Virus record (IMG/VR): IMGVR_UViG_3300050139_000038
Location: 1-45,143 of that record
Length of the DNA: 45,143 bases
DNA from: a virus
Direction: 5' to 3' (one strand)
Below the pieces are notes generated by a model that was given only the letters and a program-made list of their open reading frames with translations, was not told the origin of the DNA and ran no database searches. The position numbers and the translations under genes were made by a program. Positions within the stretch are counted from its first letter, which is position 1, and the number at the start of each line of letters is the position of its first letter. Below are positions 37,771 through 41,086 of this stretch, piece after piece.

Positions 37771-38285
37771 TGACAGCAAATCTCGATGAAATGAAGAAAG
37801 CACTTGAAACCATCTCTAAAGGGGATGGAGTAGATAAGTCTATAACACACGCAGTCAAGCCACAGAAAAATCCAAACATCCAAAAAGACGAGAATGGAAT
37901 TAAAATAGATAGGAGGCATTTCAATAAACATAGTCCAGGATCGGGCAGAAAGACTCTAGAGAAGACTATAATCAACAAAGGCATAAAGGAATGGATGGAC
38001 GACCACGCTAGTGAATTGGTGGATATGAACCTGATAGACAAGAAGACTGGTAGACAGGTGACAATCAAGAAGCCCCGCCGAGTAGCCGTTATAGAGAAGA
38101 TATTCGAGATAGGAATGAAAGGAGATCGAGTGATAGGAAATGTGGCGGCTCTCAAAGAATGGATGGATAGGTATGCTGGAAAAGCCAGCCAACCTATTCG
38201 TGGAGAGGGAGAGGATTCGCCAATCAGGTTACATGTCGATAACTTGGATAGAATATTAGAAAAAGCATATGGTAATGAAGATTAA
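37770..38285 (+). CDS. Terminase small subunit candidate (TerS), 171 aa
   Basis: Basic N-terminal half with a possible helix-turn-helix (TIINKGIKEWMDDHASELVD). Then come VAALKEWMDRYAGKASQPIR and an acidic C-terminal end (VDNLDRILEKAYGNED). The 'GKASQPIRGEGED...LDRILEKAYG' ending is typical of small terminase subunits, which recognise phage DNA and hand it to TerL. It is followed by an HNH gene and then TerL, so the homing gene has split the normal TerS-TerL pair. Confidence 0.65.
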   Translation: MTANLDEMKKALETISKGDGVDKSITHAVKPQKNPNIQKDENGIKIDRRHFNKHSPGSGRKTLEKTIINKGIKEWMDDHASELVDMNLIDKKTGRQVTIKKPRRVAVIEKIFEIGMKGDRVIGNVAALKEWMDRYAGKASQPIRGEGEDSPIRLHVDNLDRILEKAYGNED

Positions 38286-38835
38286 AAACCACTGGTTGGG
38301 TAGGAAACATACTATGGCGAGTAGGCGTAAAATGAGCGAATCACGAAAAGGAAGAATTATAGGACCAGAATGGAGAAAACATATGAGTGAGGCAAAACAG
38401 AGGCAGAGAATACGAGATGGATATATCCTTTCACCAGAGGTAAGAAGAAAAGTAAGTGAATCAAAGAAGGGAATACCACGACCAGAATGGGTGAAGGTAA
38501 AATTGAGAGGAGCAAACGGTGGAGGATGGAAAGGTGGTGTATCGACAATAAACCACTTGATACGAGAAAATATTAAATATCGTCAGTGGAGATCAGATAT
38601 ATTTCATAGGGATGATTTTACATGCAAGATGGGAGGGGAGCGTGGTGGAGTATTAAATGCTCATCATATAAAACCATTGTCGTTAATTATTAAAGAGAAC
38701 AATATAAAGACCCTAGAACAAGCTTTGGTGTGTGAGGAAATATGGGATTTGAATAATGGAATAACCGTCTGTGAGAAATGTCACAGATTAACCGAAACAT
38801 ATGGTACGAGAACAAAACATAACAAGATGTATTGA
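38269..38835 (+). CDS. HNH homing endonuclease between TerS and TerL, 188 aa
   Basis: NUMOD3-like N-terminus (WLGRKHTMASRRKMSESRKG, then GPEWRKHMSEAKQ), a Gly/Trp linker (GGWKGGVSTI), and an HNH domain: FTCKMGGERGG, NAHHIKPLSLI, NNGITVCEKCH. The second Cys of the first zinc pair is Gly (CKMG instead of Cys-x2-Cys), which may weaken zinc binding; the His/His and Asn positions remain. It overlaps TerS by 17 bp and TerL by 35 bp. Start may be 38269 or 38275. Confidence 0.8.
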   Translation: MVMKIKNHWLGRKHTMASRRKMSESRKGRIIGPEWRKHMSEAKQRQRIRDGYILSPEVRRKVSESKKGIPRPEWVKVKLRGANGGGWKGGVSTINHLIRENIKYRQWRSDIFHRDDFTCKMGGERGGVLNAHHIKPLSLIIKENNIKTLEQALVCEEIWDLNNGITVCEKCHRLTETYGTRTKHNKMY

Positions 38836-41086
38836 TACGGCTGTCGAAGCTGGGTCACCTATGGATCAAGTTAAACAGTTTATTGAATGTTCTTACATTC
38901 CATACGAGTGGCAATGGCGATTTCATTCAGCATGTAGGGAAGCAGACAGGGCAGATGGACCAGTGGATATAGGGCTAGGAGGTGCAAGAGGACCGGGAAA
39001 GAGCCATGCAGTACTCTCACAGGCCGCTTTAGATGACTGTCAAAGGGTTAAGGGGCTCAAGGTGCTCTTTTTACGCCAAACAGGACAGAGTGCCAAGGAG
39101 TCGTTCGATGACCTCGTGGCGAAGACCCTATTGGGTCATATCGTGTATTGGAAAACACAGAACTCATTGAGGTTCGAGAATGGATCGAGGATCATATTGG
39201 GGGGGTTCAAAGATGAGCGGGACATCGACAAGTATATCGGTATCGAATACGATCTAATCATTGTCGAGGAATTGACACAACTTACGCAAGCCAAGTATGA
39301 GAAGCTTCGGGGATCATTGAGAACATCAAAACCAAATTGGAGACCGAGAATGTATACATCATTCAATCCAGGAGGGATAGGTCACACATGGGTCAAGGAA
39401 AGATATGTAATACCATTTAGATTAGGAGAGCAGAATATAACTCGATTTGTGCCATCAACGTACAAAGACAACCCAGCACTCAACAAAGAGTATATCGAGT
39501 ATCTAGAGGGATTACAGGGCGATCTAGGGCGTGCGTGGCGTGAGGGAGACTGGGATCTGTTCGAGGGTCAATACTTCGCAGAATGGAGACGAGACAAGCA
39601 TGTGTGTGAACCGTTTGAAGTCCCGGACACATGGCCAAAGTTCAGGTCAATAGACCCGTCAGGACGTTCAGGTATTACATCATGTCACTGGTACGCTGTA
39701 GATCGTGATGCAAGGGTATGGGTGTATAAAGAGCATTACTGCACGGGAATGGACATGGATGAGCATGCCGAGCAAATCAAGAAGATGTCGTTTGATAGGG
39801 AGGGAAATGCCGAGAGATATCAATACACGGTCATGGATTCGGCGGCGTGGGCAAAAGCCGGATACGCCGAGACTGGGATAGAGATTTACATGCGACATGG
39901 AGTAGGTGTGGATGAGCAGTTGATCGCTTCAGACAAACACAGATTGGTTGGTTGGAACGTTGTGCATCAGTATTTACGCATTGACAAACCAACTGTGGAT
40001 AATCCCAACCCACAACCGAAACTCAAAGTGTTTAAGACGTGCTACAATATGATACGAACAATCCCAGAATTAAGACATGATGAACTTCACCCCGAGGATG
40101 TGGACTCGAAAGGTGAAGATCATTGCTTGACAGGAGATACGCTCGTTGATACTAACAAAGGACAAAAGATGATTAAAGATTTGGTTGGTAAAGATGGCAG
40201 GGTAGCCACCCTTGTTGGGTGGAAAAACTACCGCTCAGTTAGGATGACAGCACAACAACAAGAGATATTCAAAGTAACACTTGGTGATGGACGAAGTTTC
40301 AAAGCAACAGCAGATCACAATGTACTTACCGATAAGGGTTGGAAACAAGTGAAGACGCTTGATTTGGTACACGACAGTGTGATATGCTTAGATACATGGA
40401 AAAACCCATTATCATTTCAAGAACAATCCAAGAGTTTGAAGGAATCAGATACTATCTTTGCGGGAAATACTTCCAAAGGAAAGGACGCAGACTTCATGTT
40501 CGGGTATGGACGAGCGCTCATGGAAAAGTGGAGGGAGGATATCATGTCCATCATAAGGATAACGACAGATCAAACAACAGTATTGGAAATCTGGAAAAAC
40601 TATCTAGGTTCTCCCACCTCTCCCTTCATGCAAAGTTACCAGAGAATCGTAGAGCATCTGCGGAACGCATCGTTAAATACGCAGTACCAAAAGCAAGAGC
40701 ATGGCACGCCACAGCAATTGGATCAGAATGGCATAGTGAACACGCAAAAGAAAGTTGGAAACACTGGAAACAATATACAAAAAGATGCAAAGAATGTAAG
40801 AGAAGATACACAACCTATTTTCCAAGCAGATCGAAGTTCTGCCATCTTAATTGCAAAATGCGAGCCTTGCGGGAAAGAAGACGTCTACAATCTCACAGTT
40901 CCTAGTGTTAAGCACTTCTCGATAAATGGTGGTATTATAGTTCATAACTGTGGTGATGAACTCAGATACTTTCTTCAGACACTCCGAGAAGGCAAGGCTC
41001 CAAAACTTGAAAACGCTATTGAAAAGAGAATGAGACAAGCACAAGAACAGGAGACAAGTTACAATTTCAACTATACTCGCAACTAA
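38801..41086 (+). CDS. Terminase large subunit (TerL) containing an intein, 761 aa precursor
   Basis: ATPase: Walker A GARGPGKS (residues 61-68) and Walker B LIIVEEL (Asp151-Leu158 region). Nuclease: DPSGRSG (Asp285) and VMDSAAW as acidic positions; the third lies in the conserved EDH-x-x-DELRY motif. An intein (residues 442-716) interrupts that motif exactly after EDH; splicing would restore EDHCGDELRYFL and give a 486-residue enzyme of normal length. TerL packages phage DNA into proheads. An internal ATG at 38861 is an alternative start that avoids the HNH overlap. Confidence 0.9.
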   Translation: MVREQNITRCIDTAVEAGSPMDQVKQFIECSYIPYEWQWRFHSACREADRADGPVDIGLGGARGPGKSHAVLSQAALDDCQRVKGLKVLFLRQTGQSAKESFDDLVAKTLLGHIVYWKTQNSLRFENGSRIILGGFKDERDIDKYIGIEYDLIIVEELTQLTQAKYEKLRGSLRTSKPNWRPRMYTSFNPGGIGHTWVKERYVIPFRLGEQNITRFVPSTYKDNPALNKEYIEYLEGLQGDLGRAWREGDWDLFEGQYFAEWRRDKHVCEPFEVPDTWPKFRSIDPSGRSGITSCHWYAVDRDARVWVYKEHYCTGMDMDEHAEQIKKMSFDREGNAERYQYTVMDSAAWAKAGYAETGIEIYMRHGVGVDEQLIASDKHRLVGWNVVHQYLRIDKPTVDNPNPQPKLKVFKTCYNMIRTIPELRHDELHPEDVDSKGEDHCLTGDTLVDTNKGQKMIKDLVGKDGRVATLVGWKNYRSVRMTAQQQEIFKVTLGDGRSFKATADHNVLTDKGWKQVKTLDLVHDSVICLDTWKNPLSFQEQSKSLKESDTIFAGNTSKGKDADFMFGYGRALMEKWREDIMSIIRITTDQTTVLEIWKNYLGSPTSPFMQSYQRIVEHLRNASLNTQYQKQEHGTPQQLDQNGIVNTQKKVGNTGNNIQKDAKNVREDTQPIFQADRSSAILIAKCEPCGKEDVYNLTVPSVKHFSINGGIIVHNCGDELRYFLQTLREGKAPKLENAIEKRMRQAQEQETSYNFNYTRN
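40124..40948 (+). other. Intein within TerL, 275 aa
   Basis: Block A: CLTGDTLVDTNKG, starting at Cys1. Block B: FKATADHNVLTDKGW with the T-x-x-H element. C-terminal blocks: DVYNLTVPSVKHFSINGG, then IIVHN with terminal Asn and a following Cys+1. All residues needed for standard splicing are present. The middle third in this frame has no LAGLIDADG or HNH signature; instead an HNH gene is encoded there in another frame. Insertion in an active-site motif of TerL is typical of inteins. Confidence 0.85.
40384..40905 (+). CDS. HNH endonuclease nested out of frame inside the intein, 173 aa
   Basis: A second reading frame wholly inside the intein encodes IRYYLCGKYFQRKGRRLHV, then GGYHVHHKDNDRSNNSIGNL, the classic HNH_3-type core with catalytic His and Asn. 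SHLSLH follows, and a C-terminal zinc finger (KRCKECKRRY...FCHLNCKMRAL). Both this frame and the intein frame are open for over 500 bp. Alternative start at 40396. It could be the homing nuclease of the intein, translated separately from the host protein. Confidence 0.8.
   Translation: MLRYMEKPIIISRTIQEFEGIRYYLCGKYFQRKGRRLHVRVWTSAHGKVEGGYHVHHKDNDRSNNSIGNLEKLSRFSHLSLHAKLPENRRASAERIVKYAVPKARAWHATAIGSEWHSEHAKESWKHWKQYTKRCKECKRRYTTYFPSRSKFCHLNCKMRALRERRRLQSHSS

Follow-up and report, generated by a model that had tools for sequence, protein, structure and literature searches.

We analysed a complete virus record of 45,143 bases (IMG/VR record IMGVR_UViG_3300050139_000038; this whole stretch of DNA is called the window throughout), in which the gene for TerL carries an intein whose spacer can also be read, in another frame, as an HNH endonuclease. 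The reading that we favor, to which we assign a probability of about 0.8, is that this HNH protein is translated on its own as a homing nuclease, and that its gene is overprinted on the spacer of an intein, whose main constraint is to stay open. The TerL open reading frame (ORF; 38801-41086) and the HNH ORF (40384-40905) lie on the same strand in different frames, both are open, and the HNH ORF fills the spacer that separates the two intein halves. Because the N- and C-intein share the single TerL ORF, the window does not have the fractured layout, in which the intein is split. Nor does it have a canonical in-frame intein nuclease, since its HNH lies in another frame.

Frame of conservation, intein and nuclease in the window

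Substitutions between the window and L002, the closest relative fetched (L-numbers are our handles for loci), were counted at TerL codon positions 1, 2 and 3. They came to 19, 8 and 38 in the N-extein, 11, 14 and 43 in the N-intein, 14, 44 and 20 in the overlap, 0, 0 and 5 in the last 45 nucleotides (nt; 40861-40905), 1, 0 and 4 in the C-intein, and 13, 6 and 24 in the C-extein. The peak at intein position 2 within the overlap falls on HNH position 3, so selection there follows the HNH frame. Selection follows TerL on both sides of the overlap and HNH inside it; the codon-position comparison in both frames, which the initial annotation had proposed, thus reveals a switch of frame at the overlap and a switch back after it. 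Intein-frame constraint within the overlap appears to be confined to those last ~45 nt, as judged from five substitutions.

The same pattern is found among relatives. In 33 disjoint pairs picked by TerL identity, the HNH frame was more conserved than the spacer frame in every pair, and HNH position 3 was the most-changed position in 30. A wider set of 113 pairs, whose choice by HNH identity is biased, gave the same outcome. The initial annotation had described more than 500 bp as dual-coded. That description stands insofar as both frames are readable, but selection does not act in both over that length. When synonymous codons of the window HNH were shuffled 2000 times, only 0.35% of the trials left the intein frame without a stop (mean 3.3 stops), and the third forward frame of the window has 10 stops. 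The best reading of these data is that the amino acid sequence of the spacer in the TerL frame drifts, and that its main constraint would be to stay open.

The splicing motifs and the complete out-of-frame HNH protein that were first noticed from the letters alone are both borne out. Cys1 (codon 40124-40126), TADH in block B and the VHN|C end, with Cys+1, are all present, and Pfam Intein_splicing matches the window TerL with E 3.1e-8 and 34.0 bits, slightly below the cut-off of 35.8. In the AlphaFold model of the intein, confidence is restricted to the two HINT halves (residues 1-90 and 241-275), where block means of the predicted local distance difference test (pLDDT) are 93-98; in the spacer they are 37-56. 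The core model fits the Ssp DnaB intein (1mi8) with a VIA Z of 22.4 and a root-mean-square deviation of 1.1 over 128 residues. In the 155 overlapped inteins described below, which include that of the window, Cys1, the final Asn and a Cys, Ser or Thr at +1 are each present in all 155; the last two intein residues are HN (116), SN (29), KN (7), AN (2) or GN (1). T62 and H65 of block B are invariant in 32 of 32 aligned inteins. We regard the window element as an intein with class 1 splicing residues and a HINT fold, which would presumably splice.

The hidden ORF matches Pfam HNH_3 (E 1.2e-13) and carries HVHHKDND, SNNSIGNL and a Cys4 zinc finger. The three residues that we take to be the HNH triad (H53, N61 and H74) are jointly kept in 154 of the 155 overlapped copies, the Cys4 finger is kept in all 155 (window included), and HNH_3 was matched in 32 of 32 overlapped copies scanned. 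The AlphaFold model of the HNH protein (40396-40902) has a mean pLDDT of 96.0 and a predicted template modeling score of 0.61. A sequence-profile search of the PDB returned two matches at E <= 0.1, namely the homing enzyme I-HmuI (1u3e chain M, E 2.5e-4) and one non-nuclease chain. The features of the window are collected in Table 1.

Table 1. Features of the TerL gene and the HNH gene nested in its intein, in window coordinates
Feature	Coordinates	Strand	Evidence
TerL precursor ORF (N-extein, intein and C-extein), 761 amino acids	38801..41086	+	Terminase_3 E 2.9e-17, Terminase_6N E 1.8e-8 (Pfam)
TerL N-extein, last residues SKGEDH, followed by the intein	38801..40123	+	intein-free L300 and L297 show GEDH|AADELRYFL
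Intein, 275 amino acids, with Cys1, TADH in block B and VHN end	40124..40948	+	motifs; AlphaFold HINT-like core
Splicing domain, N-terminal half (residues 1-90)	40124..40393	+	pLDDT block means 93-98
Intein-frame spacer, residues 91-236, predicted disordered	40394..40831	+	pLDDT block means 37-56; low amino acid conservation
Out-of-frame HNH_3 homing-type endonuclease ORF, 173 amino acids	40384..40905	+	Pfam; switch in frame of selection
HNH_3 catalytic motif HVHHKDND...SNNSIGNL, ORF residues 36-75	40489..40608	+	Pfam HNH_3
C-terminal Cys4 zinc finger of the HNH, C131/C134/C149/C153 numbered from ATG 40396	40786..40854	+	
Splicing domain, C-terminal half with blocks F and G (residues 237-275)	40832..40948	+	pLDDT block means 95-98 from residue 241
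3' end of the HNH ORF beside intein block F	40861..40905	+	substitutions at intein positions 1, 2, 3 = 0, 0, 5
TerL C-extein, opening with Cys+1 GDELRY	40949..41086	+	

Recurrence and registers of the overlap among relatives

A search for the same overlap in other phage inteins had also been suggested at the outset. We collected relatives from GenBank phages, species genomes and virus contigs. Similarity to the HNH was the basis for nearly all of them; a set of three loci and L039 were chosen for similarity to the intein. Besides these three, the loci came from scans that kept the best 80, from sets of 19 and 17, and from 17 GenBank regions. In all, 296 sequences were loaded (window included), of which 294 had a forward-strand HNH; 81 of these were removed as repeats, leaving 213 distinct in the HNH core, among which near-identical HNHs remain. 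The loci were then classified with our own hidden Markov models (HMMs) of the N-intein half, the C-intein half and the HNH. Of the 213 distinct HNHs, that of the window among them, 155 are nested out of frame within an unbroken intein ORF, 19 are fractured, 10 have one intein half and 29 are without a recognised intein. The canonical arrangement was rejected, as no in-frame HNH intein was found among the 213 by this HMM classification, which covers almost wholly one HNH family (others may differ).

By eye, five more loci are overlapped, namely L094 and L113 from the class without a recognised intein, L166 and L283 with the N-half only, and L267 with the C-half only. The count of 155 leaves these five out, and the 26 rows without a recognised intein in the start-signal and tree analyses include L094 and L113. 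HNH scores are weak in three of the 29 (L018, L036 and L295), and strong in 18 of the 19 fractured loci, L039 being the weak one.

Measured from profile start to stop codon, 153 of the 155 HNHs stay wholly within the intein, and the remaining two run past its end by 2 and 5 nt. Relative to the HNH, the register of the intein frame is +1 in 127 copies and +2 in 28; the third frame is open in none and has 15.5 stops on average. Synonymous-codon shuffling predicts open frames in 17.4 of the 127 and 0.1 of the 28. Because the overlapped class is open by definition, this comparison is fairly based on all loci that have both intein halves: 155 of these 174 are open.

On a tree of the HNHs (FastTree only, 197 rows), register changes at least 8 times, compared with a mean of 26 in 100 label shuffles, and overlap and fracture interchange at least 4 times. 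That 8 changes are seen where shuffled labels give 26 indicates that overlaps are inherited, yet have been set repeatedly. The initial annotation had left it between an invasion intermediate and a stable overprinted solution; with 155 distinct cases and inherited registers, the second is favored and the first is not.

The D..RY motif, directly ahead of which the intein of the window TerL is inserted, could be anchored by a lenient pattern in 145 of the 155. Insertion is two residues before its Asp in 86, one before in 43, one after in 5 and two after in 10; for the single case at five residues after (L195), the anchor is probably wrong. Among the 79 of 155 N-exteins scanned with Pfam, 54 match Terminase_6N and 42 Terminase_3, some matching both. 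The host of L275 is a DegT/DnrJ/EryC1 aminotransferase gene, not TerL, and a Pfam check of the host gene gave no terminase match in L192 and L293.

The overlapped layout is also present in the GenBank phages TJE1, Highwayman and LS06-2018-MD07, whose records annotate TerL alone over the HNH. Other records show related arrangements. In L039 (Brochothrix phage BL3), the N-half of the intein is 51.7% identical, the C-half occupies a different ORF and the trace of an HNH is only weak; it may be a fractured intein that has lost its nuclease. L034 (Vibrio phage 1.245.O, Schitoviridae) and, similarly, L040 have a TerL with an apparent upstream intein and a fractured second intein, between whose halves lies an HNH of the same family as the hidden HNH of the window. 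The record of Shewanella phage KASIA (L036) gives TerL as a three-piece join, which an HNH gene overlaps.

Mobility, proposed mechanism and rival explanations

If the intein and its HNH are mobile, as the initial annotation suggested, empty sites and transfers between diverged hosts would be expected, and both are found. The site GEDH|AADELRY is empty in L297, whose TerL is 77.7% identical to that of the window over 443 amino acids, and in L300 (72.2% identical, 133 amino acids covered); these two show the same TerL end and may be one phage type. A third empty site is in L301 (TerL 43.9% identical). At another position, L297 bears an in-frame intein that includes a LAGLIDADG-like stretch.

Three pairs of loci, chosen for discordance among the 33 pairs of similar TerL, have DNA that is far more alike within the element than around it. 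Intein plus HNH are 97.0-98.5% identical in L198/L274 (upstream terL 73.5-75.7%, first 120 nt downstream 67.2%), 94.5-99.4% in L237/L238 (69.2-82.5% upstream, 67.5% just downstream) and 90.0-97.0% in L208/L211 (66.0-74.2% upstream, 72.1% just downstream). In all three, the shift in identity falls at the intein edges. Together with the empty sites, these shifts argue that intein and HNH move as a unit, and whole-element homing or recombination would leave such discordant pairs.

In the mechanism that we propose, one stretch of terL mRNA would be read in two frames. The TerL frame would give a precursor from which the intein (the HINT halves and a disordered spacer of ~146 amino acids) would splice itself, leaving active TerL. 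Internal starts, at ATG 40396 or 40384, would give a separate HNH_3 endonuclease of 169-173 amino acids with a C-terminal zinc finger. This enzyme would cut intein-free terL where the conserved motif of the nuclease domain is encoded, and repair after the cut would copy intein and HNH gene together. The amino acids of the TerL-frame spacer would matter little beyond the absence of stops. Out-of-frame nesting probably persists because the HNH stop codon is hidden from ribosomes translating TerL; insertion in frame would truncate the essential TerL, unless the intein were split as in the fractured form, for which trans-splicing would be needed. In L011 (560-760), a free-standing relative, the HNH follows an intein-free TerL and seems to be preceded by an intein-like remnant, DTLRYSD, that is also seen in L007 (L014 is similar); this suggests that nested copies can leave inteins again.

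We put at slightly better than even the broader proposition that there is a widespread class of overprinted inteins, in which a terL-aimed HNH family sits mostly in alternative frames of intein spacers and has changed register at least about 8 times, since an autonomous gene could nest in an essential intein-bearing ORF only with an out-of-frame stop or a split intein. The spacer would then be a by-product of another gene's code.

Several points weigh against overprinting by a homing nuclease, or limit it. Internal translation, splicing, site-specific cleavage and the hidden-stop rationale are all steps that we infer from sequence. The frame-switch comparison in the window uses one relative, L002, and the scans returned their best 80 loci, so that locus counts are to be read as "at least". 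A Foldseek search with the HNH model gave no PDB match at E <= 0.001, the best being I-HmuI (1u3e) at E 0.24. Mobility, too, has a counterexample: L128/L145, a pair chosen for the opposite sense, share 81% of terL DNA and only 72.4% of HNH DNA. The L002 HNH is 85.1% identical to that of the window, with 33.0% identity in the ATPase part of TerL and 70.3% in its nuclease part (for L044, the corresponding values are 50.6%, 65.9% and 62.4%); as window and L002 are discordant in the ATPase part only, TerL recombination alone could explain this pair. Ahead of the window HNH there is only a 5-nt GTGAT, 12 nt before ATG 40396, and no purine-rich Shine-Dalgarno core. Shine-Dalgarno-like matches of at least 5 nt, a class that accepts any stretch of the 13-nt reference and includes poor matches like GTGAT, precede 27 of 153 overlapped copies and 13 of 152 controls, as compared with 17 of 18 fractured copies and 14 of the 26 rows without a recognised intein.

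Raising the length to at least 6 nt leaves 13 of 153 overlapped copies against 0 of 152 controls. GTGAT ahead of ATG 40396 is conserved in L002; we do not count it as a clear signal. Of the two candidate starts, ATG 40396 is the more likely by our judgement. Fractured copies have strong start signals, whereas initiation in overlapped copies is probably weak in general, and the scarcity of Shine-Dalgarno matches in the latter suggests that HNH expression may be weak. Apart from this, relative to that of the window the L002 TerL is chimeric, and DNA identity between the two peaks in HNH and C-intein.

The rival that survives best, though we consider it unlikely, is that the HNH does not home at all and has been domesticated to assist TerL in DNA packaging, a role put forward for HNH genes between terL and portal in other phages. 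The HNH is mostly in or beside terL, and in 19 of 24 free-standing relatives its profile starts no more than 106 nt after a TerL-like ORF. A further point for packaging and against homing is that TerL-adjacent GVE2-like HNHs are interpreted as packaging factors (PMC12724721). A packaging role fits poorly with the HNH_3 matches in all copies scanned, with I-HmuI as the sole nuclease matched in the PDB by sequence, with the empty sites in L300 and L297, with the overlapped copy in the aminotransferase gene of L275, and with the pairs in which intein and HNH appear to have passed as a unit between diverged terL genes.

Still less probable is programmed frameshifting, in which ribosomes would leave the intein frame for that of the HNH and might later return, so that an intein-HNH fusion and no free nuclease would be made. 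The HNH ORF is directly 3' of the N-intein half, and the window would require a -1 shift, close to the run of A at 40400-40404. L002 is without this run (ATGGAACCAATC at the aligned start), opposite shift directions would be needed among relatives (127 at +1, 28 at +2), and the best-scoring start is ATG in 139 of 153 overlapped copies, by a score that favors ATG.

It is very improbable that the HNH frame is open merely by chance or that it belongs to a gene in decay. Weak translation signals in the window would fit, but the triad and the Cys4 finger are kept almost throughout the overlapped copies, the HNH model is predicted with high confidence, and the gathering of substitutions at HNH position 3 contradicts it. 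A sequencing or assembly frameshift that split a normal in-frame intein endonuclease, raised initially as an error that would merge the two frames, has practically no probability left, as the layout recurs in 155 distinct HNHs, GenBank phages TJE1, Highwayman and LS06-2018-MD07 included, and the frame of selection tracks both ORFs.

Relation to known systems and neighboring elements

Fractured genes, in which a split intein accompanies a free-standing endonuclease, were reportedly described by Dassa and colleagues in 2009. The arrangement here resembles them in having a separately encoded endonuclease between intein halves, and 19 of the 213 distinct HNHs are classed as such; it differs in that the host frame stays unbroken through the nuclease gene, both in the window and in 154 further distinct cases. 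The hidden HNH resembles I-HmuI by its profile match to 1u3e chain M, and the gene for I-HmuI lies within a group I intron. The window differs in this respect, and a group I intron was rejected as the carrier: no Rfam family reached its gathering threshold anywhere in the window, although a divergent intron could escape by scoring lower.

A closer parallel is the ShiLan-domain type, an out-of-frame HNH insertion in a phage DNA methylase (Arsenault, Gosselin and Gogarten 2025, PMC11855218). The two share a zinc-finger HNH out of frame, an insertion open in the host frame, a scattered distribution and no detectable ribosome-binding site; they differ in that no intein or intron was found there and the host protein is thought to retain the insert, whereas here an intein with splicing residues encloses the HNH, the host is TerL and 155 distinct HNHs are involved. 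TerL inteins with LAGLIDADG nucleases are known from mycobacteriophages, with splicing shown for five and cleavage for two (Kelley et al. 2016, PMC5050341). TerL as host and nucleases of mobility are common to both systems. The mycobacteriophage inteins occupy an ATPase-domain site and the two nucleases tested are LAGLIDADG domains between splicing blocks, whereas here an out-of-frame HNH takes the place of the nuclease and insertion is at a motif of the nuclease domain. A literature search, mostly of titles and the beginnings of abstracts, found no out-of-frame HNH inside a splicing-type intein; Gosselin 2025 (bioRxiv) and Gorbalenya 1998 might anticipate part of this.

Overprinted HNH inteins appear to be common and, at the level of sequence, well supported, and would be a variant of known out-of-frame HNH insertions and split inteins. 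If so, a selfish nuclease gene can occupy an essential gene without being an intein domain and without breaking the gene, and a single HNH family connects homing genes of the nested, fractured and free-standing kinds at one target motif. The set also offers many natural cases of overlapping genes with an internal control, the third frame, and suggests a route to natural split inteins. For annotation it carries a warning, as a TerL-only annotation can mask a hidden HNH, as in TJE1, Highwayman and LS06-2018-MD07.

Additional mobile elements are found near some overlapped copies. LAGLIDADG_3 matches upstream in the overlapped-HNH precursors L190 and L293, and weakly in L278, which suggests a second, in-frame intein in the same gene; the L261 precursor has a second splicing domain. 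In the window itself, a second, free-standing HNH gene (NUMOD3 and HNH_2 by Pfam) lies directly upstream of TerL at 38269-38835, sharing ~35 nt with the start of TerL; it belongs to a Pfam family other than that of the hidden HNH.

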